From: Nannochloropsis oceanica
Lineage: Eukaryota; Sar; Eustigmatophyceae; Eustigmatales; Monodopsidaceae
DNA: 64,000 nt
NCBI GenBank assembly: GCA_004519485.1
Contig: CP038132.1
Coordinates: forward strand, 1,266,641 to 1,330,640
Direction of reading: 5' to 3'
This document shows positions 2,384 through 59,835 of the stretch, piece after piece. The notes under the pieces are model-generated. The model was given only the letters and a program-made list of their open reading frames with translations, was not told the DNA's origin and ran no database searches. A program made the position numbers and the translations under genes. Position 1 is the stretch's first letter, and the number at the start of each line of letters is the position of its first letter.

Positions 2384-5300
2384 TTAGATGCCCGAAAAGT
2401 CGTGATGGCCCACTGCCAGCGCCGTCGTCAGGATGCCCAGCACCAAGAACGGCTGTGCGCTCGCCTATTGAGGAAGCAAAGGAGGGAAGCAGGGCAAGTC
2501 AAGAGGAGCGATTAGTACGTGCTTGACCAATCGTTTCGCGGAAAGGAGAGGGAAGGACAGAGGAAAGAATAGGAAGAGGGAGGGCTTGCTAAGGTCCATC
2601 AGCTAAAATTTGTCATCAGGAGATCTGTATACGCTTGTAAGACTATGTGTCGATTGAACACACACCTACAACATCCTATGGACCACAATATTCCTCAAGA
2701 ACAGAAAAATGGAAGGAAGGAATGAGAGGGAGGGACGGAGGGACGTACGCACCTGATACTTGACATCATATTTGATGGGGTCCTTCAAGAAGTATTTGAA
2801 TTGGAAAAAGATTTGGGGTAAAATCAGGCCGAGCAGGGCGAGCGCATAGGTGGTCTCGCCGATGTAGGCCAGGTAGCCAGCCACGCCGAGCTTTTGGGGA
2901 GAGGATGAGGGGGGGGGGAAGGAAGCAGGAGAACACGAGATTTCAGTGAGCTTCGATATGTTTGGGTACGCTTCAATTTCGAGAAGTTTTCTAGAGACGA
3001 ATGAGAGTGAGAAAGGGAAGGAGGAAGGGAGCGAGGAAGGGAGGGAAGGAGGGAGGGAAGGCATCCACCTGGGTGACGTCAATGGTGCCAACGCAGATCC
3101 ATTTGGCAGTATCGATCCCGAATGCCACGGGGAGGGAGTTAAGGCCCATGGCCCGATCGCCCTCGATGGACTTGAAGTCGTTGACGATAGCAATGCCGAG
3201 CCCGGCCAGACTAGGGAGAGGGGAAAGAAGAGAGGGAGGGAGAGGTGGGGGAGCGGCAGCAAAGATTAGACTGGGAGATAGCTTTTGTGCGCTCTACAAT
3301 GGCAACAAAAGATAGGTCAGATCAGCCCTCCCTCTCTTCCTCCCTCTCTTCTTCCCCCTCTACCTACCTGTAGAGAATGGTGAGCACCACCACCTGTGCA
3401 TTGAGAGTGCCAAACATGGCTTGCCCACACCACCAGGGCAGGGAGATGTAAGAACACCCGAGCGCGTAATTGCCGATCCAGCCGCTCTGTAAGGGAGGGA
3501 GGGAGGCAGGTAGGTAGGTAGGTAGGTAGGAAGGTAGGGAAGGAGAGGAACGTGTCAGGGTAGGTGCTCATTCCACCGCGGCAGCAGAAAACAAAAAATA
3601 AGGGCAGCCTCCTTTTCCCTCCTCCCATCCTCCCTCTGTCCCTCCCTCGTCCCTCTCTTTACCTGCTTCAACTTGAGTGGCGGCGCGCTGTAGATGTAGG
3701 AGATGAAGGAGCCCAGGGCGGAGAGACCGAGGATCGTGGGCTCGGTGTGACCGGCCCACAAATCAAGCACGCCGGCGAGGCCGAGGCCCGCCAGAAGGAG
3801 TCCCCAGATTTGCCCCTTCACTTGGCCCTGGAGGGAGGGAGGGAGGGAAAGAGGGAGGGAGGAAGGGAGGGAGGGAATGGAGGTGGGGTTGAGATTGAGT
3901 GGTGAGACTCTGTTAGGGTTGGACACAAGGGTAATACCCTCATTCTTCCCCTCTTTCTCCCGCCCTTCCTCTGTCTCTTTCTCCTCCCACACCTCGGAGA
4001 TGCGCCCGGAGGGGATGGGGCGGTAAGGCTCGTTGATGGCGTCGATGTCCTTGTCGTACCAGTCGTTAATGGTTTGAGTAAAACCGGTCAGGAGGGGCCC
4101 GGCGAGAAGCTGAGGAGGGGGAGGGAGGGAGGGAGGGAGGGAGGGTTACGACGGGATTCAACGGTCTGTAGGCCCATGAGGGTGGGCTAGAACTTGATGA
4201 GGAGAGAAGCCTCAGATACAGCATTCACATAAGCGGAGGAAAGGAAAAGCTGCTATAGAGAAACAAAGAGGATAGAGAGGGAGGGAGGGTGGAAAGGAGG
4301 GTGGAAGGGAGGGAGGGAGGGAGGGAGGGAGGGCGGGAGGGACGTACCATACATGTGACTGCCTTGGCAGCGTCCTCCAAGCCGAGGGAAAGAGGGACGG
4401 CGTCCGGATTGGCCTGGTCCAGGGGATTGGCCCAGTGGTAGTTGCCACTGGCGGCGGCTCCGCAGACCTGAAGGAGGGAGGGAGGGAGGAAAGGAGGGAG
4501 AGAGGGAGGAGGAAGAGTATTTAGGGATGGCGTCCGGGCTGGTTTGATTGAAGGGATTCGGCCACTGATTGGTTTTACTGACGGAACCATCGCAGAGCAA
4601 AGGAGGGAGGGAGGGGGGGGGGGAATACACTCATTATCTTTTTGGAGGCATGCAGGATTCTCTCTCCCTCCCTCCCTCCCTCCCTCCCTCCCTCCCTCCC
4701 TCCCTCCCTCCCTCCCTCCCTCCCTCCCTCCCTCCCTCCCTCTTGTTCCAACGTACCACGCCCCAAATGAGAGGGATCCAAGTGACAGGCTTCATGAGCT
4801 GGATGCGAATCTTGAGGAGGTCGTCCGTCTCAGCCGCACCTTTCATGCCCAGGAGTTGCCTACCAAGGAAAGGAGGAAGCAAGGAGGGAGGGAGGGAGGG
4901 CGGGAAGGAAGGACGAAGATGACGAGGTAATGTGGTCTAGCCGAGATTGGATTCTTCCTTGAATCTTACAGTGTATAGGCCACATCGGTCTCCCCTCCCC
5001 TTTACATTCCTTTCCTTCTTCATCTTCCCTTTCCTTCACCCATCCCTCTCACTCTCCCTTCCCGTCCCCCTCCCTGTGTGCCCTCATCTCCATACCTGGC
5101 AGTGTTGCTCCCCACTTCACTATTGTCCTTCTTCCCCTTGCCCTTCATGCCTAATGACGTCTCAAATGGATAGAATGACGCGGGCTTCTCCTCATTCAGG
5201 GACGGGAGGGCCATGCGCAGGAAGGAGGAGGAGCGGGTGACGGTCCGGGTCTGGATGGAAGGGAAACCGATGGGAAGGGGAGGAGGTATTTGAAATGAAG

Positions 5301-6691: not shown

Positions 6692-9600
6692 ATGGCCACC
6701 TTTCCTGGGAACTCATGGGAGCAGGTACGATTGATGACCCCCTCCCTCCCTCCCTCCCTCCCTCCCACCCTCCTACCCTCCCTCCCACCCTCAATCCCCC
6801 CTCTTCTGGTCATGCCCTTCTCTTCCTCTCTTTTGCGATGACGACTTTAAATTCATATTCCGTCTTATCTTTTATCCTTCCCTCCATCCCTTTCACTCAA
6901 TCGCCGTAGAACGACCCCCCTCCCTGCATGCGTCCCTTGCTTCAGGCGCTCAAGGCAGCCGGTGACGTGGAGCAGCAGGGGAGGGAGGGAGGGTCGGAGG
7001 GAGGGGTGGCGGGAGGGAGGGATGGAGGGAGAGAAGCGCGGGACGCGGCGCTGCGGGAGGTCTTGCGGCATTTCGGGGCGTGGGAGTTCGAGGAGAAGGT
7101 GAGGGAGGGAGGGAAGGAGGGAAGGAGGGAAGGAGGGGTAGAAACGACGCGAAATGGATCGCCTCTCCAGGCATGAGATATTTTGACTCATGCGGTCCCT
7201 CTTTTCTTGCCCCCTCAATTCTCGCTCCACTTTTCTTCTCCCTCGAGCAGGCCGACCTCCAACAACACTGGCAGCCTGTTCTTGAGATCCTGCATGACTC
7301 TCTCGCCGACACCCTAGCCTCCTGCCCGAAGCTCCTCCTCGTCCCTTCCCCCTCCTCCTCGCCCTCCTCCTCCTCCTCATTCAAGAGGAAGAAAGAAATG
7401 AGGGTACGTCCTGTCTGTTACTAGTTCCCAGCCTCAAGCATCTCCCTTCTCTCCCTCCCCCTCCTTTCCCTTGCCGAGTACAGAAGGAGGTGGATTCTGA
7501 CTTCTCTCTTCCTCCCTCCCCCCCTCCCTCCCCCCCTCCCTTCTCTCGAAGGCTCGTCTGGCCGTGCTAGAGGCCGAGGTTCTGGCCATGAAAAACGGGG
7601 AGCCATTGCCGTTGCCTGCAAATTACGCGCAGGCGTTGGAAGTACGTCCTTCCCTCCCGCCCTTCCTCCCGCCTTCCTTCCCGCTCTCCCTCCCGCCCGC
7701 CCTCCCTCCCTCCCTTCCTTTTTCCCGGCACGCCTTCCTCTCTCTTTTCTCATTCTTCTTCCTGTCCTCTCTCCCTCCTTCCCGCCCTCCTTCCCTCCGT
7801 CTGTCCCTCGTCTGTCCCTCTTTCCCCACAGACTGTCTTCTAACCCCTTCCCGTCCTCCCCCCCCTCCTCCCTCCCTCCCTCCCTCCCTCCCTCCCTCCC
7901 TCCAGCACACCTCCCTCCTCCTCCGCTTCCTCGCCCTGCTCCTCCGCAACAGCATTAATGCCCACGTCTTCCCCTCGGGTCTGCTCGTCTCCGCCCTTTT
8001 GGGGGCGAGGGACGACGAGCTGGCCGCGCGTGCCATGGAGGTAGGGAGGGAGGGAGGGAGGGAGGGAGGGAGGGAGGGAAGGCGCTTGCCTAGGGATGCA
8101 GGTCCTTCGGGAAGGAAGGAGCAAGGCTCTATCGGTTCTAGCGATGGAGGGGAATGGAGGCATGGCCCATGTCGATCCCGAGAAAGACCGCCTGGTTAGC
8201 ACCGGAAAGACCACAACAAAAGCGAGAGAGACGAACCGTTTCCTCCCTCCCACCCTCCCTCGTCTAGAGCCCCTTCCAGTTGCTTCTCACGCCCATGCAT
8301 GCTTTTTCCTAATCACTCCCTCCCTCCCTCCCTCCCTCCCTCCCTCTCCGTCAGGTCCTTTATTTGCTTGGCCTGCCCACCCCCACCTCCCTCGAGACCC
8401 GCACCGACTTTCCCCTCTTCCTCCCCCCCTCTCTCTACGGCGGAGAGAGGCACTTGCCGCGGCGGCTGGTCGCCATGGCGGCTGGGTGGGGAGGGAAGAG
8501 CCAGGTAGGGAGGGAGGGAGGGAGGGAGGGAGAGTTGGTTGGTTTAGGAGCTTGTGCTTCTGTCTCAATGCTACGCTTCCAACCCCCTTCGCCCCTCCCT
8601 CCTTCCCTCCCTCCTTCCCTCCCACCTTTCCTCCTCTTCTTTCCACGCTCCTCAATGGAATCCACGCAGGGTCTAAGTCTTGCGGCCTGTCTCGCTCCCT
8701 CGCCCCCCTCCCCCCTCCCTTCCTCGGGCGGCGACTTCAAAATGGAGGTCAGCCTCTCCTCCTCGTCCTCCTCCGAGCCCTCCACCCCTCCCTCTCTCGT
8801 CATCTTGGAGCGGAAAGCCGTGCATGTGGACCCACGGGACAGCAGCGTCATCTTCCTCGAGATCCTCGGAGAGGCTGTCAGGGGTGGTACGGAGGGAGGG
8901 AAAGAGGGAGGGAGGGAAGGAGGGAGGGAAGGAGGGAGGGAGGGAGGGAGAATGGCCAGGACGCGTGGCATTGAAACGTCCTCTTTCCCTTTCCCCCTCC
9001 CTTCCCTTCTTCCCTCCCTCCTCCCCCCCCCTAGGGAGCCTCTCCTCCCTCCCCGCCACGACCCTCTTTCCTCTCCTCCACCGCCTGCGCCTCGCCCGGG
9101 CGTTTTCCTCCCCCAATAACCGGGCTCGCGCCATTTGTGTCCGTCTGCAGGCCCTCTGCACGCTCGTACACACCTTAGGGGGAGGGAACCACATGCCTCC
9201 CTCCTCCACGGGGGGATCGAGCCAGGTAAGATTATATTAGGAAGGATAGTATTTGTATCAACAATGATTACAGTGTAATTATAATGATTTTGGGTGAAAA
9301 ATAATGGTATTTGTCTTAACAATACGAAATGTTACTGTTGGAAGAAGGAAGGCTTGAACGAGAGAGGGAGGGAGGGCCGGTCGCGCCCTTCCTCATTTTT
9401 ATTGAGTTTTACACACCCACCTACTGACGTTATTTTTCCTCCCTCCTTCCCTTCTCCCTCCCTCCCTCCCTCCCTCCCTTCCTCTTTTCTACTAGGACAC
9501 CGCCCGCCTGGCCGGCCTCCTTCAGATGCAGCCGGAGCTCATCCACGAGATGGTGGAAGTGGCAAGGCAGCCTCCCACGGGCTCGGACAGAGGTACGGAT

Positions 9601-12600
9601 GCGCTCCCTCCCTCCCTCCCTCCCTCCCTTTCCTCTCCACGTGCTTGAAGTGGGGAATGTCTTTCCTCTCTCCCTTCCTCCCTCTCTCCCTCCTTCCCTT
9701 CCTCCCTTCCTCCCTTCCTCCCTCTCCCCCCTCTGACCTCCGACTACACACATTCTTGTATTCTGTGATCCTTCCCTCCCTCCCTCCCCCCCCGCCCTTC
9801 TCAATCCCTTCTCAATCCCTTCTCAATCCCTTCTCAATCCCTTCTCAATCCCTCCCACCAGTGCACCTCGAAGCCAGTCTCCTGGCTCTCAACACCTTGG
9901 CAGCCCTCGCCGGCTCTCGCATCGGCTCCCGGCACGTGAACGTCCTGGCCCAACTCGGAGTGGCCCGGGGGCAATACACCGGCCTCCTCCCCTCGCTGTT
10001 CCGCTACGGTGAGGGGGGAGGGCGGGAGGGCGGGAGGGCGGGAGGGCGGGGGCTCCCTCGCTCTTTTCTTCTTTCTTGTCTATTTGGATGCTGGCCCTAA
10101 AAATCTCTCTTTCCCTCCCTCCCTACTTTTCTTCCTGTCCCCCCTCCCCCCTCCTTTGCGCCGACACCACCGCCGAGCGCAAAGTCATCACGCCGTCCAA
10201 CCACTGCAACCCCTCCCTCCTTCCTTCCCCCCGTGGATGCTCAACCCCTCCCTCCCTTCCTCCCCCTTCCCTCCCTCCCTCTCTCTTTGTCTACAGCGGA
10301 GATCTCTCTAACGACGGGCCTGGCAGCCCCTGCACCCTTTCGCCCTCTTCCCACCGGCAAGGAGGAGGGCGAGGGGGAGGGCGGGAAGGAGGGCGGGGAG
10401 CGGGACATGGATATGGACGTGGGGCTGGCGTTCGTGCGGGCGACCAAAGAGGAGGGGGGGACGGAGGGAAGGATGGAGGAGCAGGAGGAAGGGAGGAGGG
10501 AGGCGAGAAGGGAAGAGGAATTGTTGTGGTTGGACGGCGTGATGACTTTGCTCTCGGCGGTGGTGTCAGTACAGGTAGGGAAGGAGTGAAGGAGAGAGCG
10601 AATGAAGGGAGGAAAGAAGGAAGGGAGGGAAGGAGGGAGGGAGGGAGCGAGAAGCTTAGCATTGCTCGATTTATCCCCGAGCCACTCTCATCGGTGCTTC
10701 CCCTCCTCCCCTCCCTCTCCCCCTCCCTCCCTCTCTCCCCCCCTCCCTCAGCCCGGCGCCACTGCCCTTGTCGAATGCGGCCTGGTCCCCGCCCTCGTCT
10801 CCATCATTCGCGCCACACCCCCTCCCCTCCCCACCGACACTGCAGGAGGAGGGGGCAGGGGGGGAGGGAGGAAGGGGAGGGTGGACGATGCCAGACGCAA
10901 TTACGTGGTGGCCCAGGTGAGAAGGGAAAGAAGAGAGGGCGAGAGGGGGGAGAGATGGAGGGAAAACATGACGGACGGGAGGAAAGAACGAAATTTGATG
11001 AAGGGAAGGAAGGGAGGGAGGGACAGAGAAAGGGAGAGAATGAGCGACAGATTCTCCATATTTCCACTCCCTTATGTTCGTATTCCCCGGTCACTCTTAT
11101 TCATCCCCCGTCCCTCCCTCCCTCCCTCCCTCCCTCCCGCCCGCCCTCCCTCCCGCCCTCCCTCCTCCCCCCCCATCCCTCTCAGGCCGCCAACGTGCTG
11201 GAGACGGTGGTGGTGAACTCTCCCGTGGGCCTCCATGCCTACCGCGAGGTGCAGGCCTCTTCCGTCATCATCCACCGCCTCCACGAGGAAGTGATGCGCC
11301 TCCGCAAACCAGGTGCGGTCCACAATCCTTCCTTCCCTCTTTCCTTCCCTCTTTTCTTCCCTCTTTTCTTCCCTCCCTCTCTCCCTCCCTCCCTCCCTCC
11401 CTCCCTCCCTCCCTCCCTCCCTCCCTCCCTCCCTCCCTCCCTCCCTCCCTCTCTGCTGCGGTGCTCACTCATTCCACCTTTCCTCCATCCTTCCCTTTTC
11501 CCCTCGTTACCTCCTTCCAGTGCACAAAGACGAATCCGAACCCGTCGGCGCCGGCACCGCAGCGGAGGAGGAGGAGGAGGACGCGAAGGAGGGCGAGGCC
11601 GAGGATAGCGCCATGGCCATCGACTCTCCTTCCCCCCTACCTCCTTCTCCTCCTCCAGCACCCCCTGCGGAGGGAGGGGAGGGAGGGACGGAAGGAGGGA
11701 GGGAAGGGGGGAGAGAGGGAGGGTCAGCAGCGTCCTCGGGAGCAGCAGTGGTTGCTCGTCCGGTGCCGCCGGTCGTGTACAAGGGACAGGTAGGAGGGAG
11801 GGAGGGAGGGAGGGGGGGAAAGAGGAAAGGAGGAAGGAAAGGAGGCGTTTTCTTGGCAATTAGCGCCGGCGTGCGATCGACGTCATTGTAGTCGCCATCA
11901 GGTGAACGTCTCATAATTCCTCTCTCTTCCTCCCTCCCTCCCTCCCTCCCTTCCTCTCTCTTCCCCCCTCCCTCCCTCTCTCCCATCCTCCCTCGCAGGT
12001 TCTCTCCGCCGCCCCCCCCTCGGTCAAGACCCTCATCTACTCCCTCATCACCCTCCTCTCCATCGCCTTCCAGTCCGCGGGCTCGGCCCACATCCAGGTA
12101 GCCAGGAAGGAGGGAGGGAGGGAGGGAGGGAGGGAGGGAGGGAGGGAGGGAGGGAGGGAGGGAGGGAGGGAGGGAGGGAGAGTATCGGTGACGTCCCCTG
12201 CATCCTTACGCACACCTCTCTTCCCTCCATTCCCTCCGTCCCCTCCGCCCCTTCCCCCCTCCCTCCCCTTCTCCAGGGAGCCACGGAGGGCAGCACGCAC
12301 CTCCGGTCCCCCTCCCTCACGCAAGCCCTCCTTGATATCCTTGTTTCCCTCCCCGCCTTGAACCCCAACGTCCTCGCCCGCGCCGCTGGCCTGGTGTCGG
12401 ACATAATTGGCAGCGACCCTTCCGTTGTCAGCTACGTCCTAGGCAGTGGTTTGGCTCAGGTACGCTCGCTCTCTCCTTATTTCTCTCCTAACTTTCCTCC
12501 TAATCACTAATTACTCGCCCTTTTACGCTCGCCTTTCCTCCCCTTCCTTTCTTCCTCCCTTGTCTCTTTCTTTCCATGCTTCCCCGTACGCTTATGCCTT

Positions 12601-15600
12601 CTTTCCTCCTCCTATAATTACCCATATATATCTATATAATTACCCACCTATATCTATATATGTACATATATATATATACACGACCCACTTCCAACGCCAG
12701 GCCCTCTTCGCCCTTTTCTCCACCTCTTTGCCTCCCTCCAGCGAGTTTGTCCGTGAGGTACGTGCCCTCCCTCCCTCCCTCCCTTCCTCCCTCCCTCCCT
12801 ACTTTCTCCCTCCTCTCATCCTTCCCTCTGACCCCTACGGCCGCCTGAGCTCTTCCTTGTGTTCTTCCTCCCCTCAACCCCTCCCTCCCTCTCTCCGTCC
12901 GTCCGTCCGTCCCTCCCTCCCTCCAGGTGCCCACCGTGCTCGGCTCCCTCACCATCACCAACAGCGGCCTCGCCTCCCTCCTTGCCGCCAACCCCTTCCC
13001 CTCCCTCTTCTCCGCCCTCACCAGCCCCCTCCACGTCCTCCCCTACTCCCGCGCCGTGCTCCCTCCCTCCACTCCCGAGCTCATCGGCCAGCGATTGGAA
13101 GATTTGCTGCAGACACACGCGGCTGAAGGTACGTCCCTCCTTCCCTCCTCCCCTCCTTCCCTTCTTTCCTGCCTCCCTTTCTCCCTCCCTGCATCCCTCC
13201 ATTCATTGAGGGAGGTACATTCTTTTCTCCTTTCCTTCCCCCCTCACCTACCCTCCCTCCTTCTTTCCCTCCCTCCCTCATCAACCCTCCCTTAGGGCCC
13301 AGCGGTTCCGACACGCCGGGGCAACGTCTGCGAGACGCCACCCTCAACGCCGCCCTCTCCATTCTGTCCTCCCTTATCACCCCCTCCCTTCCTTCCCGCC
13401 GTTTTTCACCAGAGGAGGGAGGGCAGGAAGAAGGGGAGGAGGAAGGGACGCGGGCACGGTATGCCTACCTCCAGTACATCGGGAATATGGCGCACATGCT
13501 CGCGAGGTAAAGGGAGGGACGCGAGGAGGAGGGAGGGAGGGAGGGCAAGCATCACGCCTGAAGAAACAGAAGTCATTCAGCCTGACCCCCTTCCCTCCCT
13601 CCCTCCCTCCCTCCCTCCCTCCCTCTCTCCCTAGTGGCGTCCTGGCCAAGAGCGACCACTGCGCCCGTTTCCTGGAGAGGGACGGGATGACGATCCTCGC
13701 CTCCCACTACTTCCGGGTATTGCCGCTGACGGGGACGGCGCTTTTTGCCCACTTCTCGTGTGGCTCGAACCCGACCTTGATCCAGGTGAGGGGGGAAAAA
13801 TAGAGGGAAGGAGGGAAATAAGGAGGGAGAAGGGAGGGAAATTTGAATGTTTTGGTATAGAATTAAAACGGTAGTCCGCACTTATTCGTGTGCCGTTCCC
13901 NNNNNNNNNNNNNNNNNNNNNNNNNNNNNNNNNNNNNNNNNNNNNNNNNNNNNNNNNNNNNNNNNNNNNNNNNNNNNNNNNNNNNNNNNNNNNNNNNNNN
14001 TTGCCACTGTGGAGGTGCCCGGGCTCATCCTGGGGCCTAGGCGCCTGCAACGGTTATGCGGGGTGTTTTTGGAAGAGACATGCAGCGACACCACGTGCTA
14101 CCGCGTGAACAAGATAGCAGGGGCTCTCTCCAGGGTGCCGGCGAACAGGATGCATTTGCTTCAGGTGCGCCCCATTCCCTCCCCCCCTTTTTCTCTACCT
14201 TTCCCCCCCCCGTCCTCCTTGCCTTTGCACCAGTCTCTCTCTGAGCTCCCCCCCCTCACACCTTCCCCTCTCTTGCCCTCCCTCCCTCCTTCCTTTTCCC
14301 CTCAGGAGCTGCTGTCGGTGGCTGGCGGGTTAGGTGCCACTGCTCTCGATGAGCTCGGATCCCTCCATCACGCCCTGTCTGGTCTGCTCGACGTCCATGA
14401 CCCGGAGGATGGCGAGGACGAGGGCAAGGAGAAGGAGGAGAAGACGAAGACGAGAACGGAGAAGCGGAAGAGGAGCATTCCTGCGTCGGTGGTGACCTTG
14501 TCGGCCAAGAGCAGTGAAATCAAACTACTCCGGGTGCTGCAGACGATCATGGCCTTGGCCGAGAAGGGGGTCCCGAGGAAGGAGAAAGAGGAGGGGGAGG
14601 AGGATGAGGACGAGGAAGAGGAAGAGCAGGACGCCCCTATGGCTGATTCAGCACGAGGAGTAGGAGTAGCAGAGTCCAAACCTGAAGCTACTCCTCCTGC
14701 TGTTGCGAACAGTCCCATTTCCTCCCTCCAGCCCTCGTCCTCGTCCTCAGCTGTAGGGAGCGAGCATTTACTGCGTCAGATAAATCTGGCGTCTCTGTGG
14801 GACGCCCTGAGTAAGTGTTTGTCCGTCATTGCGGTGCTGGAGGGGCTGTCGGATGGGGCGAGCAGCAGCAGCAGCAGCAGCAGCAAGAGCGGCAGCAGTA
14901 ACAGCAGTGTAAGTGGCGATGACGGTATGGTTGTAGATAATAGGGCCGACCGAAGCGACAATGCGGCGGCCATGGCGGGGGAGGAGGCGGGAGGAGGGAG
15001 GGAGGGAGGAAAGGCCAGCTTGACGGCATCGAGTTCGATGGCGGGCCTGCTGGCGCGACTGCTGCCTGTGATTGAAGCCTTTTTCTTGTGCAACGCCCGG
15101 GAGGTGATATGGGCCTTCAAGAGAAAGCAGAAGGAGGAGGCGCGGGCGGAGATGCTTTCACCGCGGGAGAGGGAGAGGGAACGGGTGAGAGAAAGGGAGA
15201 GGGCGGCCAGACAGAGGCAGAGGGAAGCACGCGCGGCCGCTGCGACGGCGGCTGCTGGCAGGGGGATTAGTGGAGGAGGAGGAGGAGGAGCAGTGGAGAG
15301 TAAGGAGGTGGGTGGTGAAGCGTCGATACCCCTTCCTCCTCCGCTTTCAGCAGCAGCAGCAGCGGCGGCTGCCAAGGAAAAGGAGGAGAAGGAGAAGGAG
15401 GGGAAGGAGAAAGAGAAGGAGGCGGACTTGCAGCGGGTCAAGGCATTTGTGCAACAGCACTGGTAAGGAAACGAGGGAGGGAGGGAGGGAGGGAGGGAGG
15501 GAGGGAGGGAGGGAGAAAGGAAGATATGGGGGCTCTCCAAAAGTCACTTTTCCCTTTAGATGCACTCACCAGACCCCTCCTCTCTTTCAACCCTCCTCCC

Positions 15601-18482
15601 TGCTCCCCCTCCTCCTCCCAGCGTCCTCCTCAACGCCCTCGTCCGGCAAAATCCGTCTCTGCTCGAGAAGGGCCTGTGTCCCCTCGTCCTCCTCCCGCAA
15701 TGCCGCGCCTTTTTGGACTTCGAGAACAAGAAGGCGTACTTCCGCACTCAGGTATGGCTTGCCTGCCCTCCCTCCCTCCCTCCCTCCCTCCCTCCCTCCC
15801 TCCCTCCCTCCCTCCCTCCCTCCCTCCCCCTCCCTTCCTCGTGGGCCCCCCTCTACAAGCACAACTAAGATGAGACCCTCACATATCATCTCCTTCCCTC
15901 CCTCCCTCCCTCCCATCCAGATCAACAAAATCAAGAAGCAGAAGTACCGGCGTGCCCACCCCCTGCAGCTTCGCGTGCGACGACAGATGGTAGGGGAGAA
16001 TGGCGGGAGGGAGCGAGGGAGCGGGCGGGTTGGGAGGGCAGGCAACCGAAGATGAGGAAGGGAAGGAAGGAGGGAAGAGAAGAGGGAGAGAAGTAAGGAG
16101 GAAAGGAAAAAGAAAGACGTATGGATGGTGGATGATGGAAGAGAAGTAGACATCCAGTGCTCCCTATACCATCAAACCAACGCCCTCCTTCCCCTCCTCC
16201 CTCCCTCCTGTCTCCCTCCCTTCCAGGTGTACGACGACTCGTTTCAGCAGCTCTCCCTCCGGACGGCGGACGAGATGCGAGGAAAGCTTCAAGTCGCTTT
16301 TTACGGCGAGGAAGGTATGGGCCTCCCTCCCTCTCTCCCTCCCTCCCTCCCTCCTTCCCTCCTTCCCTCTTTCCGGACATATCCACCTCTCGTTATTCAT
16401 CACTACTCACGCTTCTTTTTTCCCTGCCTCCTTCCTTCCTTCCTTTCCTCCCTCCTTGTCCAGGCATCGATGCGGGGGGTTTAACGCGGGAATGGTTCTC
16501 GATCATGGCCCGCGAGATGTTCAATATGGTGAGAGGGAGGGAGGGAGGGAGGGACGAGGTAAAATGATCAAATTGACGGGGAGGGAATGACTAACACTCA
16601 CCCCTTCCCTCCCTCCCTCCCTCCCTCCCTCCCTCCCTCCCTCCCTTTTTCCAGAACAACGCCCTCTTCACAGCCGCCGCAGATGGGGCGACGTACCAGC
16701 CGAATCCAATGTCCAGCATAAACCCCGACCACCTGGCGCATTTCCGTTTCATCGGCCGAATCCTCGGCAAGGCCCTGAGCGACGAGCACCTTCTCGACGC
16801 TCATTTTACCCGCTCTTTCTACAAGCACATTCTGGGGGCGCCGGTCACACACCGCGACATGGAGGTGCGTTTCTTTCCCTCTTCCCCCTCTTCCTCCCTC
16901 CCTCCCTTTATTTTTGTCTCCCTTTATTTTCTTCTCCCTTCGTTCTCCTGCGTGCTGATCCTCATCTCCCTCCCTCCCTCCCTCCCTCCCTCCCTCCTTC
17001 CTTCCTACCCCTCAACTCCCAGGCCATCGACCCCGAGTACTACAAGAGCCTCTGCCAAATCCTCGAACATCCTCTCGAGGACCTCGGGCTGGAGCTGACC
17101 TTCAGGTGCCTCCCTCCCTCCCTCCCTCCCTCCCTCCCTCCCCCCCCCCTTTTTCCTTCCTTCCTTCCCTTCCACTCGTGCATCGGGAGAATCGCGCCAC
17201 TCACGCCCTTCCTTCCCTCCCTTTTCCCTCCCCTCCTCCTAACATGACCCTCCTCCCTTCCCCTGCAGTTGCGAGGCCTCGGAGTTCGGCGTGGTGAAGC
17301 TGTACGACATCGTGCCCGACGGCCGCCACGTGGCCGTCACGGACAAGAACAAGATGGAGTACATCCAGAAGATCACCCAGGTGGATACATGCCCTCCCTC
17401 CCTCCCTCCTTTATTCGAATCCCCTCCTTCCTCACGTTGTCAAAGAATTCGTTTCAAACCCTCCCTCCCTTCCTCTCTCTCTCCCTCGACAGTTCCGCAT
17501 GACCAACGCCATTCAGAAGCAGATCGGAGCTTTCCTCAGCGGCCTGCACGATCTGGTCCCCAAGGTGTGCCCTCCCTCCCTCCCTCCCTCCGTCCGTCCT
17601 CCAAGAGCAAGCCTCACATCGACTCTTCCCTCCCTCCCTCCCTCCCTCCCCCTCCCCCTTCCTCCATCAGGACCTCATCGCCATCTTCACGCCCTCCGAG
17701 CTCGAGCTCCTCTCCTGCGGCCTCCCCTCCGTGGACTTGGACGACCTCAAGTCCCACACGGAGCTGCACCACTGGCGCACGTCCGACAAGGAGATCCAGT
17801 GGTTTTGGGAGGTAAGTCGCCTTTCGTCCCTTTCTTCCCTTCCTCACTTTTGCCTCGTCCTCTCGTTCGCTTTCGCTTCCCATCAATTCATTCCATTCGT
17901 ACATCCCCTTTTTACATGCCCCCACGCCTGTCGATATTCAGCACAAGGCCATTCCCCTCCTCCACATCCCCATTGCACCCACACCTCCCGCATGCAGAGC
18001 TCGCTCTTACCACTCACCCCCTTCCTCCCTCCGCCCCTCCCTCCCTCCCTCCCTCCCTCCCTCCCTCCCTCAGGTCCTGGAGTCCTTCGATACCCAGCAC
18101 AAGGCCCTCTTCCTCACGTTCGTCACGGGCACCTCACGCGTCCCCGTCGACGGCTTCCGAGCTTTGCAAGGCCTGCACGGACCTCAAAAATTCAACATCC
18201 ACAAGATCCACGGCAAGACCGACTGCCTTCCCCAGAGCCACACCTGGTACGCTTAAGTCTTCCTTCCCTCCCTCCCTCCCTCCTTCGTTCCCGGACTCCG
18301 ACGAATAATGATCAAAAGTACCTACGAGGGCAACACTCACCCTATGCCCCCCCACGCCCCTCTCCCTCCCTCCTCACAGCTTCAACCAGCTTGATATCCC
18401 TTCCTACTCCTCCCGGGAGGCCCTGCGCAAGACTCTGGTGTTGGCCATTACGGAGTGCAGTGAGGGATTTGGATTTGCCTAA
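6692..18482 (+). CDS. HECT E3 ubiquitin ligase, UPL1/TOM1/HUWE1 class
   Basis: A very large multi-exon gene for a HECT-type ligase. The C-terminal exons (15620-18482) are unmistakable: [74 protein letters not shown], the catalytic [11 protein letters not shown], and a terminus ECSEGFGFA-stop. DLDDLK plus the GFGFA end mark the UPL1/TOM1/HUWE1 branch. N-terminal exons fit its DUF908/DUF913-type armadillo region: 6946-7098, 7251-7403, 7552-7641, 7906-8040, 8355-8504, then [13 protein letters not shown] at about 9090. The middle exons are long and acidic/Ser-rich (14310-15465). The proposed start [11 protein letters not shown] (6692-6724) splices in frame to ALKAAGD. It is an inference; an upstream start is possible. 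An assembly gap at 13901-14000 interrupts the gene. Introns are mostly GGGA/TCCC tracts. The last intron (18248-18379) splits the catalytic Cys codon as TG|C. Confidence 0.9.
9797..9854 (+). repeat. 11-bp tandem repeat, about 5 copies
   Basis: The unit CTTCTCAATCC repeats head to tail in an intron of the UPL1-like gene, ending a few bases before the acceptor CCACCAG. It forms most of that intron's polypyrimidine tract. Confidence 0.85.
11372..11452 (+). repeat. (CCCT)n intronic microsatellite
   Basis: About 19 CCCT units in an intron of the UPL1-like gene. The whole intron is pyrimidine-rich, from its donor at 11312 to the acceptor at about 11520. Confidence 0.9.
12107..12181 (+). repeat. 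(GGGA)n intronic microsatellite
   Basis: About 18 GGGA units beginning within 15 bases of the donor after HIQ in the UPL1-like gene. The same intron ends in a CCCCTCC-rich tract, so the two ends are complementary. Confidence 0.9.
13901..14000. other. Assembly gap (100 N)
   Basis: Exactly 100 N within the UPL1-like ligase. The exon before it ends near 13785, and coding-like sequence resumes right after it ([17 protein letters not shown]). Hidden sequence may include a splice acceptor or part of an exon. Confidence 1.
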
Positions 18483-22717: not shown

Positions 22718-24642
<1,925 letters not shown>

Positions 24643-25865
24643 AGAGAGAGGGAGGGAGGGAGGGCAAGAGGGAGGGAAAGGAAGGAGGAGCTGTGTCGAA
24701 GAAGGGAAAGAGGCAAGGAGAGAGGGAGGGAGAAGGGGAGGGTGGACCACCCTTATCCCCACTTCTATTTTGACCCGTTAACCGTAGGTTAGATTACTAG
24801 GAATAAAAGGAGAATGTAATTTAATCTTGATTACGGGCAGTAAAGAAAGGTAAAGAAAGCTGCAAAGCAGATGAACCCCTCAATCTCAAGTCTCAAGACC
24901 TTAATCCTCAAGTAATAATCCTAGGACTCCCGTGTAATCATCCAAGAATTGTAGCCCAACAGAAACGCAAGTATAAATAAAAGAAGAGGGAGGGGGAAGA
25001 AGGAGAGAGGGTGGGAGTGAAAAGTAGAGAGTCAGACGAAGGGGAATCGTAGACAGCTTCTAGAGCTAGAGAGGGAGGGAGGGAGGGAGGGAGGGAGGGA
25101 GGGAGGGAGGGAGGGAGGGGGGAATGAGGCGGCGCAACTGGCATACAACTTAAAAGGGGAAGGCTGAACGAGGGGGAAGAGACAAAGAATCAAAAAAAAT
25201 AAAGAAGAAAACGAACAAGGAGAAGGAGAAGGGGGAGGGTCAGAGTGTTTTTCATATATCACGAAGTTATTTTAATTAATTGACTGTGTTTTCTGTTTTT
25301 CTCCCCACCCCTTTATCATCACCAATGGTTGCACCGTGTCCGCAGACTCCCCTCCCTTTCTCCTTCCCTCCTTCTCTTTCTCCCTGGAGGGAGTATCCGT
25401 TTTCTCTTCTTTTGGACTTAAGCATTTTCTCCTCCTATGTATGGATGTATGTACGTTTGTCGCTGAACTCTGTCTTTCAGCTCATTCCCTATTTCCCTTC
25501 CTCCTTCCCTCCCTCCCTACGTGCTCAGATTTCCTTCAAACGATGGCGCCAAAACCCTTTCTGACGCTGCCGCTCGCAGTGTTCCTCCTCCCCTACTTCT
25601 TCCTCCTCCTCCTCCTCCTCCCCTTCCTCCCCTCCCTCCTCCTTCATCCCTTCAGTCCGCACGCACCATTGGATATGGAAGAGTATACGCTCCAAAAGAA
25701 GGACGCAAGGACACGACAGGAGTCTTCTGTCCCTGCTTCCGTCCCTCCTTCCTTCCCTACTTCCCTTCCTCCTTCCTTCCCTCCTCATCCTTTCATCTTC
25801 AAAAGGCCACGCTCCACTTCACCTCTCCTCCCTCCCTCCCTCCCTCACTCCCTCCCTCCCTCCCT
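24643..25865. other. Convergent intergenic region
   Basis: This is 3'-to-3' space between the winged-helix gene and the tetraspan gene. It holds a (GGGA)n tract at about 25072-25118 and CCT/TCC-rich stretches at 25590-25650 and 25830-25865. No gene recognised. Confidence 0.5.
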
Positions 25866-31021: not shown

Positions 31022-31089
31022 GACGTGAGCGTAGATTAAGCGCGTTTTTCATGACAGCCTTTCAGATTCCCTCCATCTCTTTCAACCAC

Positions 31090-34000: not shown

Positions 34001-36107
34001 CTCTCACACATGCATATATATATATATATATCCTTAATCTGCGAAAGACACTCCCTTCCCTCCTTCCTCGACAGAATCCAATGTGTACGATACAAACAAG
34101 ACGTCAATGAAAGGAACCCACTATGTCAATTCCCCTTCCCTTCTTCCTTCCCCTCCTCCCTTCTTACAGCTATTGTTCCTTCATCTCCCAAAAACGTCAC
34201 CCCGATAAAATCAGCGCCAACCACACCCGGCTCCAAGAGGACGGTCCCTCCCCTTATTTCGATTATTTCGTCTCGAAAAAAAATGTTTTCGGTTCGATTC
34301 TTGTTTGCCTGCAACTCGGCTTCTGTCGACCAGGAGCGAGGACGGACCTCGCCCTTGCCTGCATTAATGCGCAAGTGGCGAAGGGTGAGGTGGGCACCGG
34401 CCTGGGACGGAAGGAAGAAGGGGAGGGAGGAGAGGAGAGGGAGGTGAGACTTATTGTCCCTGCTGCCGCCATATTCTCATTCGAGTAGACTGCGTATGCT
34501 CCTGCTACTGTTGCTGATGCCGTGCTCACATGCAACGGAAGGGCGTCGGGACCTTTGCCAAAGATACAGAAGGGAGAGAAGGAGGGGAAAAAGAAACAAA
34601 AGAAAAGATCAGAAGTAGGGAGAAACGAGGCTTACCTTCACCCGGAGACAGCGCACAGACTCCGCGCAGTCAATAAACGGCATCATCACAGAGTCTCCTT
34701 GGATCGTGACCGTGCGGCGGACGACGATTTCCTTGTACAGCTGGTATTGCCCATCCTTGTCTTCACTGTCATCCACCTCTTCTTCCACGTCCGGATCGTC
34801 GTCATCCTGTGGGAAAGGCGATGAGAGGGAGGGTGGGAGGAAGAAAGTAAGAAAGAAAGAGAAATCCATTACTTGACGCGGAAGGTCCATTCGCCCTTCC
34901 CCATCTCTGGTTCGCTCCTCCCTCTACTCCTTTCATTCTCGTGACTCTATGTCCTCCTCACATACTCTATATCCTCTTAACATTTCTATGCCATCCCGCT
35001 GACAGACGCGAGATCATTCATCTCAAACGCCGTCGCCTCCCTCTTACCCTCCCTCCTCCCCTCCCTCCCTCCACCCCCTACCTTATCCTGGGCCGCCTCC
35101 CCCACGTCGTTACTAACAGAGGCTAGTTGAATCATCTCACATTTCTCCTCGTAAACCGCTTTGCGCAGCTCTATCGAGTTCTCTACATAACACACCCCTC
35201 TCTCCTCGTCCACCTCCACGTCCTGCCCCTCCTCGCCCATGTCCTCCTGCTCTTCCTGCGCTGCCTTGATCTCGCTCTCCTTCTCCTCTCCCTCTGCAGC
35301 GGGAATCTCATTCCCCCAAAAATCAACCTTCTGTCGCGCCTTGTCTGCGTTCAATGCGGCAGCATCGTCCAATATTTGCTGTAGGGAAGGAGCCGGCGCG
35401 GGTTTCGCTGGGGCTGCTGCTCCTGCTCCTGCCCCCGTTGCTGCTGCTGCTGCAACGGTTGGGGTGAGAGGTAGAGCCGAAGAAGGAGTGGATATCGTTG
35501 CTTGTGGTGGTGATGATGGTGGTGGTGCTGCTCTTGTTACTGCTTGAGTCGCATCTGGTGCGACTCCATCAATCAAACTATTGAAAACACCCTCTCCATC
35601 ACTACTGCCTTTACTGCCACTGCTGCTTCTACTCCGACTACTGATGGTCCCATCACCTATAAAGACAAGTCCCACCGCCACTAGAATGATGCCCAGCGCC
35701 AAGACAACCCCCCAACGCACGCGTTGCCGCCTGTGCTGCAGCTGCTGTTCGTTGGTGGTGTTGACGATAGTCGCCCCCGTTGCCGCGGTCGACTCCGGCT
35801 GGGAAGGATGGAGGGAAGGAGGGAGGAAAATGAGCTCACATGCCGTATGAAGAGATGCCTGCAGTGGCTGGCCATGACCAATCGTGCACACACATAGGAA
35901 GCAGGCTGATCATATTAGCAGTCCATTTCATCCCATCCCTCCACGATAGCGTGAATTCTGGAATGACGATCACTGGGTGGAATGAATATGGAGATCTACA
36001 TTCCTCGCACCCTCAGGACAACGATTCACAGATTCGTCTCTTCTTGCTCCCTATCCCATCCCCCTTTTCCATTCCCCACTTACGTCGTCAATCTCTGGTA
36101 GCATCAT
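31090..36107 (-). CDS. Type II membrane-anchored right-handed beta-helix protein (copy 1)
   Basis: About 15 exons on the minus strand (36107-36084, 35798-35082, 34806-34636, 34401-34168, 33953-33891, 33773-33717, 33569-33446, then smaller ones to 31090) join in phase to about 800 residues. A short cytosolic N-terminus with RRQRVRW precedes one membrane helix (GVVLALGIILVAVGLVFIG), then an Ala/Pro/Ser stalk and an acidic block. From LRKAVYEEKCEMIQL onward the sequence is made of short strands spaced about 20-25 residues apart: VTIQGDSVMMPFIDC, LRVKAGAHLTLRHLRI, GGRVNFLRCTFWDL, GEAYFTGCIWVLN, GGLMVINFCAMIVNN, GGSIFVGLGAAVMG. That is the pattern of a right-handed parallel beta-helix (pectin-lyase-like) fold. 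Such domains usually bind or modify polysaccharides; no catalytic residues can be assigned. The tail is Ser/Asn-rich and ends ETLAKVK. Confidence 0.7.
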
Positions 36108-40799: not shown

Positions 40800-40867
40800 G
40801 ACGTGAGCGTAGATTAAGCGCGTTTTTCATGACAGCCTTTCAGATTCCCTCCATCTCTTTCAACCAC

Positions 40868-43800: not shown

Positions 43801-45807
43801 TTCCCCTCCTCCCTTCTTACAGCTATTGTTCCTTCATCTCCCAAAAACGTCACCCCGATAAAATCAGCGCCAACCACACCCGGCTCCAAGAGGACGGTCC
43901 CTCCCCTTATTTCGATTATTTCGTCTCGAAAAAAATTGTTTTCGGTTCGATTCTTGTTTGCCTGCAACTCGGCTTCTGTCGACCAGGAGCGAGGACGGAC
44001 CTCGCCCTTGCCTGCATTAATGCGCAAGTGGCGAAGGGTGAGGTGGGCACCGGCCTGGGACGGAAGGAGGAAGGGGAGGGAAGAGAGGAGAGGAAGGTGA
44101 GACTTATCCTCGCGATTGTCCCTGCTGCCGCCATTGCTGCTGCTGCTGCAGCAGCATTGCTCATTCAAGTAGACCTGTATATGCTCCTGCTACTTTTGCC
44201 GATGCCGTGCTCACATGCAACGTAAGGGCGTCGGGACCTTTAGCAAAGATGCAGAAGGGAGAGAAGGAGGGGAAAAAGAAACAAAAGAAAAGATCAGAAG
44301 TAGGGAGAAACGAGGCTTACCTTCACCCGGAGACAGCGCACAGACTCCGCGCAGTCAATAAACGGCATCATCACAGAGTCTCCTTGGATCGTGACCGTGC
44401 GGCGGACGACGATTTCCTTGTACAGCTGGTATTGCCCATCCTTGTCTTCACTGTCATCCACCTCTCCTTCCACGTCCGGATCGTCGTCATCCTGTGGGAA
44501 AGGCGATGAGAGGGAGGGTGGGAGGAAGAAAGTAAGAAAGAAAGAAATCCATTACTTGACGCGGAAGGTCCATCCGCCCTTCCCCCATCTCTGGTTCGCT
44601 CCTCCCTCTACTCCTTTCATTCTCGTGACTCTATGTCCTCCTCACATACTCTATATCCTCTTAACATTTCTATGCCATCCCGCTGACAGACGCTAGATCA
44701 TTCATCTCAAACACCGTCGCCTCCCTCCTTCCCTCCCTCCTTCCCTCCTTCCCTCCTTCCCTCCCTCTCTCCCTCCACCCCCTACCTTATCCTGGGCCGC
44801 CTCCCCCACGTCGTTACTAACAGAGGCTAGTTGGATCATCTCACATTTCTCCTCGTAAACCGCTTTGCGCAGCTCTATCGAGTTCTCTACATAACACACC
44901 CCTCTCTCCTCGTCCACCTCCACGTCCTGCCCCTCCTCGCCCATGTCCTCCTGCTCTTCCTGCGCTGCCTTGATCTCGCTCTCCTTCTCCTCTCCCTCTG
45001 CAGCGGGAATCTCATTCCCCCAAAAATCAACCTTCTGTCGCGCCTTGTCTGCGTTCAATGCGGCAGCATCGTCCAATATTTGCTGTAGGGAAGGAGCCGG
45101 CGCGGGTTTCGCTGGGGCTGCTGCTCCTGCTCCTGCCCCCGTTGCTGCTGCTGCTGCAACGGTTGGGGTGAGAGGTAGAGCCGAAGAAGGAGTGGATATC
45201 GTTGCTTGTGGTGGTGATGATGGTGGTGGTGCTGCTCTTGTTACTGCTTGAGTCGCATCTGGTGCGACTCCATCAATCAAACTATTGAAAACACCCTCTC
45301 CATCACTACTGCCTTTACTGCCACTGCTGCTTCTACTCCGACTACTGATGGTCCCATCACCTATAAAGACAAGTCCCACCGCCACTAGAATGATGCCCAG
45401 CGCCAAGACAACCTCCCAACGCACGCGTTGCCGCCTGAACTGCAGCTGCTGTTCGGTGGTGTTGACGGTAGTCGCCCCCGTTGCCGCAGTCGACTCCGGC
45501 TGGGAAGGATGGAGGGAAGGAGGGAGGAAAATGAGCTCACATGCCGTATGAAGAGATGCCTGCAGTAGCTGGCCATGACCAATCGTGCACACACATAGGA
45601 AGCAGGCTGATCATATTAGCAGTCCATTTCATCCCATCACTCCACGATAGCGTGAATTCTGGAATGACGATCACTGGGTGGAATGAATATGGAGATCTAC
45701 ATTCCTCGCACCCTCAGGACAACGATTCACAGAATCGTCTCTTCTTGCTCCCTATCCCATCCCCTTTTCCATTCCCCACTTACGTCGTCAATCTCTGGTA
45801 GCATCAT
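40868..45807 (-). CDS. Type II membrane-anchored right-handed beta-helix protein (copy 2)
   Basis: Same exon plan as copy 1, start at 45807 (MMLPEIDD) and stop at 40868. The N-terminal anchor, stalk and first helix coils are nearly identical to copy 1, with a few changes next to the membrane helix. The coils encoded at about 41450-42900 differ at many residues while keeping the strand pattern: GGLMVINFSVMIINNFASF, QDFYAILGAFGIGF, VNLHVDFWIM against ENPHADFWIM. Introns there differ more than exons. The C-terminal tail is again almost identical. It is therefore a full, probably functional paralogue whose helix core has diverged. The substrate is unknown; surface polysaccharide is a guess from the fold. 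Confidence 0.7.
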
Positions 45808-58500: not shown

Positions 58501-59835
58501 TGTAGAGAAGGGAAAGAGATAGAGGAATAGCAAGATGAAGAGGAGGGGAAAAGGAGGAGAAAGAGGAAGGCCAGCGAGAGTGGGCGTGTGTATGTAAACA
58601 GGTGAATTCCGTCCCGCGTCTCCCTCCCTCCCCTTCTGCCCGCTCTATTCCACTAACTTGTCGGTTCGTCGGCGAATATTAAGCTGGGGCTCCCCAGCAG
58701 TTCGCAAGCCAGGGACAGCCTCTTCTTCTCCCCTCCCGAAATACCGCGGATTTTATCGTCCCCTACGATAGTGTCAGCCGCCTTGGCCAGCCCCAGGCGC
58801 TTGAGGAGGGAGTCCACCAAGGCCGTTTTTTGTTCGAGGTCAAGGGAGGATGGGAGGCGGAGGCGTGCGGCCATCAAGAGAGTCTCTCGTACGGTGAGTT
58901 GAGAGTAAAAGATGTCTTGCTGGCGGACATAGGCCTGCGTGTGTTCACTCGAGGAGGAGGAGGAAGAAGACGAAGGAAGGGAGGAATGCGACACGAGCTG
59001 GCCGTTCACGTAGAGGCGACCATGGAGGGTTAATGCGGAGGAGGCCGGGACTTGCCCTGCCAAGACATTCAGAAGGGTCGTCTTCCCAGATCCGCTGGGG
59101 CCCAGGATAGCCAGCAGACGACCGGGCTCGGCGTGGCCGGTTACCTGAGGAGGACGATAATAGTGATGGTTGGAGAAGTACAATGGAGTTGAGTACAGGT
59201 GTTTTAATAAACCGTGGGATCGGCATGGAGCGTGGCTAAGCCGCGAGTGAATCCAAATATCATGACAGTAAAAGATCAGGTACTGAAGGGACACAATACG
59301 TATGGCCATCGACATGCCTGGCGGAGGAGACAGTGAGTGATGAAGGAGAGGCATGTCATCAAAGAACTGATGCCCCATCTTGCGGACCAGATGCCCCACA
59401 CCTTTTACCTACGGTAATAGTGGGACGCCAGTTAACCTCCTACCCCCTTTCCTTTTTCCTCCTCTTCCTCTCCCTTCCTCCCTCCCTCGCATGCACTCGC
59501 CCATATCTTTTCCCCCTTTTCTGCCGGACGCTAGCAGCCCTAAAATCCCTCATGAACGCACGCACCTGCGAGAGTAGGTTCTTGCTCCCCTCCTTCGTCT
59601 TGAGCTTCAACTCACACGTAATGCCTTCCCAGTCCAAACGGACAGGGGCGACCTGGTCGTGCGCAACTGTGGGCAAGGCTGACACGTCTTTACTGCTGGA
59701 GCTCCACCAACCAGCATGGGCAAGGGGAGGGGAGGCGATGAGAAGGAGGCTGCAGAGTAAGAGGCAAGGGAGGAGGATGAGACGGGGCAGAGGACGAAGG
59801 GGGAGGGGAGGTCGAAGCTGGGCATGATGAAGCAT
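55537..59835 (-). CDS. ABCG (WBC) half-transporter
   Basis: ATP-driven membrane exporter of the ABCG family, substrate unknown. Ten exons (59835-59566, 59144-58658, 58442-58188, 57958-57628, 57361-57274, 57131-56972, 56815-56651, 56531-56479, 56110-56023, 55862-55537) join with consistent phases to about 740 residues. The nucleotide-binding domain comes first, as in ABCG: Walker A GPSGSGKTT, signature ISGGEKKR, Walker B LIFADEPTSGLDS, and H-loop ISIHQPRSS. Six membrane helices follow, including LVFGALFYQMG, LPVTALFPCLFGGIMY, AAAGFGMFVGTLVPS and GALAGVSYLLTYLMLAW. The tail is a Lys/Glu repeat (KEKKEKKEKK). The N-terminal exon has a strong hydrophobic run ending PPLAHAG, unusual ahead of a cytosolic ATPase domain. 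Exon 4 has a second in-frame acceptor 102 bases upstream. Confidence 0.93.

Follow-up and report, generated by a model that had tools for sequence, protein, structure and literature searches.

The UPL1-like gene and its introns

The DNA considered here is a 64,000-nucleotide (nt) window of the Nannochloropsis oceanica genome (C6:1266641-1330640 in a 29.26-Mb assembly of 32 contigs), and our subject is the tracts of GGGA and TCCC tetramers that its introns carry beside their splice sites. A first-pass annotation had drawn attention to these tracts in a UPL1-like gene, which we model from position 6928 and whose product has a terminal HECT ubiquitin ligase domain of the HUWE1/TOM1 type. A guide spacer and a primer given in PMC6432748 for the nitrate reductase gene of N. 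oceanica IMET1 each have one exact match in the assembly, on C15, their outer ends lying 206 bases apart, which identifies the genome as N. oceanica or a very close strain. The HECT part matches HUWE1 in PDB at E = 1.3e-136, with residues 4-424 of 424 aligned and a few short gaps. The gene model was checked by hand and contains 29 introns, with an open frame across 17 upstream and 12 downstream introns, 11 of the latter falling inside the HECT alignment. One further intron enters a gap of 100 N and is excluded from every count. The introns are given below with the donor tract before the acceptor tract; they come from the hand-checked model, and those from 15463 onward also lie inside the HECT alignment and are supported by homology.

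7099..7250, plus strand, intron, GGGA / TCCC
7404..7551, plus strand, intron, TCCC / TCCC
7642..7905, plus strand, intron, TCCC / TCCC
8041..8354, plus strand, intron, GGGA / TCCC, 47 predicted end-to-end pairs
8505..8669, plus strand, intron, GGGA / TCCC, donor at 8505 gives an open frame
8887..9034, plus strand, intron, GGGA / TCCC
9226..9495, plus strand, intron, AT-rich tract-free donor / TCCC
9593..9861, plus strand, intron, TCCC (6, plus 1 GGGA) / TCCC
10009..10296, plus strand, intron, GGGA (4, plus 1 TCCC) / TCCC
10575..10751, plus strand, intron, GGGA / TCCC
10917..11185, plus strand, intron, GGGA / TCCC
11313..11520, plus strand, intron, TCCC / TCCC
11790..11998, plus strand, intron, GGGA / TCCC
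12098..12276, plus strand, intron, GGGA / TCCC
12460..12926, plus strand, intron as modelled, tract-free donor / TCCC
13129..13295, plus strand, intron, TCCC / TCCC
13507..13634, plus strand, intron, GGGA / TCCC
13787..14001, plus strand, uncounted intron, GGGA-rich donor, enters the 100-N stretch
14165..14305, plus strand, intron, TCCC / TCCC
15463..15621, plus strand, intron, GGGA / TCCC
15752..15920, plus strand, intron, TCCC / TCCC
15990..16226, plus strand, intron, GGGA / TCCC
16315..16463, plus strand, intron, TCCC / TCCC
16529..16654, plus strand, intron, GGGA / TCCC
16865..17022, plus strand, intron, TCCC / TCCC
17106..17268, plus strand, intron, TCCC / TCCC
17381..17492, plus strand, intron, TCCC / TCCC
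17565..17670, plus strand, intron, TCCC / TCCC
17812..18073, plus strand, intron, weak TCCC / TCCC
18247..18379, plus strand, intron, TCCC / TCCC

The last 60 bases of the modelled introns contain TCCC in 29 of 29 cases and GGGA in none. The donors divide into 13 with GGGA, 14 with TCCC, and 2 with neither, so that both types stand side by side in one gene, and a single odd tetramer lies near the donor in 2 of the 29. The nine introns that the first-pass annotation had named are all present with ends 0 to 3 bases from those it gave (donors at 8041, 8505, 8887, 10575, 10917, 11790, 12098, 15463, and 16529). The modelled intron 12460..12926 is probably two introns, 12460-12700, with a tract at neither end and an AT-rich acceptor, and 12758-12926, with TCCC at both ends. 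The likely 57-nt exon between them (12701-12757) keeps the frame and has a coding score near zero (0.36). If this exon is counted, TCCC acceptors number 29 of 30, the exception being the AT-rich acceptor without either repeat. The 100-N run at 13901-14000 covers the end of a GGGA-donor intron and is possibly an assembly gap at the tract.

Tract orientation at acceptors and donors

Intron calls beyond this gene were made with a purpose-written, two-strand gene finder that is mostly ab initio and works on sequence only. Neither GGGA nor TCCC is favored by its design, because the noncoding model is strand symmetric and splice-site scoring is narrow, covering only bases +3 to +6 at the donor and only base -3 at the acceptor. 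The finder was applied to the window, to C1:200001-400000, and to three blocks, D1 to D3 (50 kb), which had been selected for tract matches in earlier pattern searches, leaving the C1 segment as the sole interior block. From 419 predicted introns, 277 were kept, and 142 were removed for an exon score below 5, a length outside 60 to 600, or the presence of N. Tract classes were scored in the first (donor) and last (acceptor) 60 intron bases, oriented by transcript. A second, homology-supported set consists of 41 junctions within PDB-aligned spans of five genes, excluding junctions beyond the alignments or with gaps suggesting a missed exon or shifted end; four of the 41 (window 3828-3926, D1 12733 and 12267, and D3 9343) lie at a gap in, or the edge of, an alignment. 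An alpha-mannosidase-like protein of D1 had no PDB match at 1e-30 and was not used.

Among the 277 gene-finder introns, acceptors carry TCCC in 98 cases and GGGA in 9, the rest having no contiguous tract, whereas donors carry GGGA in 58, TCCC in 46, and neither in 173 (P = 0.28 for the GGGA-to-TCCC split against one half). This donor/acceptor tetramer comparison, which the first-pass annotation had suggested for annotated introns and which we ran on predicted ones, gives a strong asymmetry (Fisher P = 5e-14). At least one of the nine GGGA-acceptor introns is a wrong model (13758-13860, whose true donor is 13787). The asymmetry persists without the D blocks, with 6 GGGA and 59 TCCC acceptors among 204 introns of the window and C1 (P = 5e-12; donor split against one half, P = 0.24). 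Homology-supported acceptors have TCCC in 40 of 41 cases and GGGA in 0 of 41, and their donors comprise 16 GGGA, 24 TCCC, and 1 with neither (P = 0.27 against one half), the two repeats never being mixed within 60 bases of the donor. The sense-strand polarity at acceptors that the first-pass annotation reported for this gene therefore extends to the larger samples, and we consider it real.

Donors behave differently. The GGGA-to-TCCC ratio is 19:21 in the window and 24:22 in the D blocks, or 43:43 for these tract-rich regions together. Donor tract length does not differ between orientations (7.0 versus 6.6 tetramers, P = 0.72; 22.7 versus 26.0 bases, P = 0.17). Tract-rich genes thus use both donor orientations alike, and the tract-poor C1 block leans toward GGGA. 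The side rule in the annotation's title, GGGA only at donors and TCCC at acceptors, is right for the acceptors and for GGGA, but TCCC makes up about half of the donor tracts in tract-rich genes and so stands on both sides, as its own text half acknowledged. Positional coverage gives the same picture: in the 150 of 277 introns that bear tracts, each repeat reaches 0.23 at 20 to 30 nt from the donor, and near the acceptor TCCC reaches 0.44 versus 0.03 for GGGA. No contiguous tract occurs at either end in 138 of the 277 introns.

Acceptor polarity is also seen in whole-genome searches for tracts anchored to splice-site words, in which anchors were counted once by taking the reverse column for the pattern and the forward column for its backwards control. 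TCCC followed by YAGG occurs 1504 times versus 350 for the control, and GGGA followed by YAGG occurs 1306 times versus 1905; the other columns point in the same direction (3135 versus 570 for TCCC and 2027 versus 3090 for GGGA).

We find it hardly credible that the polarity is an artifact of gene prediction or assembly. The models are mostly ab initio and several are wrong, the intron called at 13758-13860 and the missed 57-nt UPL1 exon being examples. However, the rule is cleaner in the homology-supported introns, where GGGA acceptors are absent, and in the hand-checked UPL1 frame; the scoring scheme is blind to the acceptor tract apart from position -3; and for the HECT part of UPL1 the continuous alignment refutes an artifact.

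Two minus-strand genes of the window extend the observation. One is a chlorophyll synthase gene (match to PDB chlorophyll a synthase, E = 2.7e-113), and the other is an ABC transporter gene (PDB match, E = 2.8e-77 for the whole sequence and 4.5e-40 for the best single stretch). The intron that had been cited from each, 3487-3662 and 57362-57627, has GGGA and TCCC ends exactly as described. Introns of these two genes were placed by PDB alignment and are listed with other features of the window, donor before acceptor.

2891..3068, minus strand, chlorophyll synthase intron, TCCC / TCCC
3211..3367, minus strand, chlorophyll synthase intron, GGGA / TCCC
3487..3662, minus strand, chlorophyll synthase intron, GGGA / TCCC, named in the first-pass annotation
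3828..3926, minus strand, chlorophyll synthase intron, TCCC acceptor; donor as called is probably wrong, with an alignment gap before it
4110..4347, minus strand, chlorophyll synthase intron, TCCC / TCCC
4468..4756, minus strand, chlorophyll synthase intron, GGGA / TCCC
24640..24712, plus strand, GGGA tract after a predicted stop codon (gene-finder model)
34807..35081, minus strand, duplicated-gene intron with a GGGA-rich donor, paralogue of 44492-44785
44492..44785, minus strand, paralogue of 34807-35081, donor tract 20 bases longer and acceptor tract the same
56532..56650, minus strand, ABC transporter intron, TCCC / TCCC
56816..56971, minus strand, ABC transporter intron, TCCC donor, last 60 bases tract-free
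57132..57273, minus strand, ABC transporter intron, TCCC / TCCC
57362..57627, minus strand, ABC transporter intron, GGGA / TCCC, named in the first-pass annotation
57959..58187, minus strand, ABC transporter intron, TCCC / TCCC
58443..58657, minus strand, ABC transporter intron, GGGA / TCCC

The window also contains a tandem gene duplication on the minus strand (29020-37792 and 38798-46285, offset near 9.8 kb) in which several paralogous introns are 98 to 100% identical. A duplication with introns this similar offers a natural test of tract change.

Pairing between intron ends

The first-pass annotation predicted that GGGA at the donor and TCCC at the acceptor pair into a hairpin that joins the splice sites, and that such a stem might be a genome-wide splicing aid. 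GGGA-donor introns can indeed fold end to end by prediction, in 13 of 13 UPL1 cases and, with 12 or more pairs required, in 14 of 16 homology-supported ones, at a mean folding energy of -52.5 kcal/mol per 100 nt. TCCC donors cannot pair with a TCCC acceptor, and end-to-end folding was predicted for 0 of 14 such introns in UPL1 and 0 of 24 in the homology-supported set (mean energy, -4.5 kcal/mol per 100 nt). Bridging repeats of different sequence are known from fish and lamprey, according to the accessible part of PMC7404189, and these share with the present introns complementary simple repeats at opposite ends and one possible stem. Pairing is reported there to enforce splice-site choice, whereas here many tract-bearing introns have noncomplementary ends and no coupling of the two ends emerged.

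This lack of coupling was found in several comparisons. Acceptor TCCC tetramers number 7.0 with a GGGA donor and 6.2 with a TCCC donor in the homology-supported set (P = 0.37), and in the 277 introns the acceptor tract is shorter with a GGGA donor (12.6 versus 19.5 bases, P = 0.014), contrary to what a hairpin would call for. GGGA-donor and acceptor tract lengths do correlate over all introns, a level that 0 of 1000 shuffles reach, since both tracts are present in tract-rich genes; within genes, where 173 of 1000 shuffles are as high, donor GGGA is independent of acceptor TCCC, and the co-occurrence beyond shuffled pairs that the annotation had anticipated is absent. Such independence is the outcome that the annotation had named as refuting its proposal. 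The length of TCCC-donor tracts, by contrast, does follow that of the acceptor tract within genes (matched by 0 of 1000 shuffles), and no pairing can explain this. Duplex energies were likewise compared between real pairs and 2000 within-gene re-pairings in three sets, with nonpairing arms set to 0. Mean energies for real versus re-dealt pairs were -33.03 versus -31.71, -31.33 versus -32.49, and -25.98 versus -25.80 kcal/mol, and real pairs were not stronger, as 300, 1752, and 786 of the 2000 re-pairings were as low or lower.

Two further observations concern the arms themselves. In the recent paralogous introns 34807-35081 and 44492-44785, one case, the second has a donor GGGA tract longer by 20 bases and both have the same acceptor tract, so the arms have changed independently. 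For 2 of the 9 UPL1 GGGA-donor introns examined, out of 13, a foreign upstream TCCC tract lies nearer to the donor than the intron's own. TCCC-donor introns in the same gene suggest that the stem is not needed, and together with the independence of the arms and the re-pairing result, they led us to reject the hairpin as a selected splicing aid. The foldability claimed for GGGA-donor introns holds as a prediction; that the pattern exists for the sake of pairing we regard as very unlikely.

Origin of the tracts and of their polarity

Tracts are concentrated in introns and, within introns, near exons. In the window and D blocks, GGGA tracts cover 0.040 of intron and 0.008 of exon sequence on the sense strand and 0.019 of predicted intergenic DNA on the plus strand, and TCCC tracts cover 0.101, 0.004, and 0.010, respectively; in the C1 block, GGGA and TCCC coverage is 0.016 and 0.015 in introns and 0.005 and 0.006 in intergenic DNA. 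Tracts are most frequent 10 to 50 nt from the exon on either side and less so in mid-intron across three length classes above 130 nt, including introns of 260 to 600 nt. Along contig C1 (1.67 Mb), the first 200 kb holds 40 of the 95 matches listed for acceptor-anchored TCCC, the following 1.19 Mb holds 10, and the final 0.28 Mb holds 45, which places 85 of 95 in the outer 0.48 of 1.67 Mb, a count on one contig in which tract phases are listed separately and the borders were drawn after inspection.

The AG-free zone upstream of the 3' splice site is at least 44 nt long in 40 of the 41 homology-supported introns, and an AG lies within 40 nt of the acceptor in 1 of 41. When the last 60 nt were shuffled 1000 times at constant composition, the mean was 6.1 of 41 and the minimum 1; composition therefore explains part of the zone. 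For introns with distant branch points, the available text of PMC1431707 describes scanning from the branch site as far as the first AG. After predicted stop codons, two GGGA units occur in 19 of 78 genes and two TCCC units in 2 of 78, and such rarity of TCCC is expected if exonic TCCC would act as an acceptor signal.

The explanation that we favor, with a probability of about 0.63, is that a strand-blind microsatellite lies beside exons and that the needs of splicing lock its orientation at the acceptor. Introns would carry a very common (GGGA)n/(TCCC)n purine/pyrimidine microsatellite beside exon edges, possibly produced by slippage, and in tract-rich genes its arrival and growth would be blind to strand, in keeping with donor orientations that are equal in number and length. 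That both strands are equally frequent and equally long at these donors points to a DNA-level cause there. Splicing would then fix the orientation at the acceptor, since the interval from branch site to 3' splice site needs a pyrimidine tract and no AG. TCCC would supply pyrimidines without AG, and each GGGA unit, which is purine and brings an AG, would be selected out before the acceptor. Neither repeat contains GT, so both would be tolerated after the donor. Stems between GGGA donors and TCCC acceptors would be a by-product of the GGGA orientation. On this account, AG exclusion and the requirement for a pyrimidine tract are the likely causes of the polarity.

Several observations weigh against this explanation. 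CTNAC, a candidate branch-site motif, peaks weakly at 30 to 70 nt. At 60 to 100 nt from the acceptor, GGGA coverage is 0.000 to 0.007, versus 0.034 to 0.067 at the same distance from the donor, so that GGGA stays rare farther upstream than the AG-exclusion zone alone needs, and mid-intron tracts comprise 13 GGGA and 40 TCCC. In the C1 block, GGGA leads among donors by 15:3 (P = 0.008; Fisher P = 0.01 against 43:43), and looser tetramer counts lean the same way, at 36:11 in the C1 block (P = 0.0003), 93:69 in the 277 introns (P = 0.07), and 51:30 of 143 in the first intron set (P = 0.03). Whole-genome donor patterns leave the ratio unsettled, as their controls are repeat-like words (AGGTRNG, 1065 versus 642 for GGGA and 308 versus 30 for TCCC; AGGTRNGT, 188 versus 137 and 159 versus 14). 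Sampled intergenic DNA has 3 to 5 times less tract than introns, which speaks against a purely neutral microsatellite. AG exclusion does not account for the way donor-side tracts hug the exon edge or for the GGGA lean of the C1 donors. We reject a neutral microsatellite spread evenly through noncoding DNA because of the intron excess and the exon-edge crowding, and blindness to orientation everywhere because of the 19 versus 2 genes after stop codons and by the C1 donors.

Some of these observations lend weight to the possibility, which we rate as unlikely yet ahead of the other alternatives, that selection keeps the donor tracts near exons as intronic splicing enhancers or as marks of the boundary, acting through binding of G or C runs or as a GT-free buffer against decoy donors, and perhaps with a preference for GGGA. 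Coverage that peaks near exon edges even in long introns, the excess over intergenic DNA, and the lead of GGGA in the tract-poor block would all fit such a role. The even 43:43 use of orientations in tract-rich genes would be odd for an RNA signal, however, and the tracts are dispensable for many introns, considering that 173 of 277 have none at the donor and 138 have none at either end.

Doubtful, in our judgment, is the proposal that the tracts are a footprint of intron birth, in which a DNA process leaves a randomly oriented tract at each end and insertions are spliceable and retained only if their 3' end carries TCCC. Its attraction lies in intron density. The window has 3.09 confident introns per kb of coding sequence, the D blocks have 2.93, and C1:200-400 kb has 0.85, and tract-free ones number 1.10, 0.92, and 0.61. 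Tract-rich regions are about 3-fold denser in introns, and tract-flanked introns account for most of the difference, in a comparison where the D blocks were chosen for tracts, the interior is represented by one block, and the finder may detect tract introns more easily. Gene intron density also follows tract share (rho = 0.52, P = 2e-4, 47 genes). However, tracts may simply accumulate where introns abound, and they also follow stop codons. No shared intron body emerged from a plus-strand, all-against-all blastn of the 277 introns with tracts masked, which returned 10 matches at E of 0.01 or less; the window's tandem duplicates account for 8, and the other 2 are short and weak. We reject an introner family on this ground, as the introns have no common body sequence outside the tandem duplicates. 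We are similarly skeptical that tract-flanked introns form an additional class, made by a strand-blind DNA process at exon edges and toward chromosome ends, tied to the 3-fold higher intron density there and marking gained introns, from which RNA-level selection discarded 3' GGGA.

Introner elements give a genome many introns that are alike at their ends. The introns described here are alike at their ends too, but only the microsatellite is common to them. In small introns of vertebrates, G triplets are said to enhance splicing from within the intron (work attributed to McCullough and Berget, 1997). G runs directly after the donor of short introns are shared with that system, and the C1 block leans this way, but in tract-rich genes C-rich tracts are as frequent as G-rich ones after the donor. 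The long AG-free, pyrimidine-rich stretch before the acceptor resembles the AG dinucleotide exclusion zones of Gooding et al. (2006), as presented in the available part of PMC1431707, although here, for the majority of introns in tract-rich genes, a tetranucleotide microsatellite makes up the stretch. Microsatellites, pyrimidine tracts, and AG exclusion are therefore known kinds of feature, and what is new is their extreme exon-flanking form.

For N. oceanica itself, the accessible portion of the CCMP1779 genome paper (PMC3499364) gives simple repeats as 4.0% and low-complexity sequence as 4.7% of the assembly, with a mean intron of 230 bp and 1.7 introns per gene, and in that portion it does not mention the motif, its intron placement, or its orientation. 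The available text of a second Nannochloropsis genome paper (PMC3886936) does not mention introns. Among the matches listed from the open-licence literature, we found no report of a GGGA/TCCC motif in Nannochloropsis introns, and nothing on point among those listed for polypurine/polypyrimidine introns. N6-methyladenine (6mA) in N. oceanica prefers AGGYV and peaks 1 to 2 bp before splice donors, according to the part of PMC10943562 available. The donor context AG|GTR fits this AGGYV motif, as a match of letters.

These introns look as if they carried designed inverted repeats, but the TCCC-donor introns of the same gene serve as a control suggesting that the stem is unneeded. The regularity is another one, that of a single microsatellite lying in either direction at the donor and in one direction at the acceptor. 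Such a pattern helps to tell apart the contribution of DNA processes and the tolerance of the spliceosome. Should the tracts turn out to be tied to the extra introns of tract-rich regions, this small, transformable alga would allow intron gain to be studied directly.

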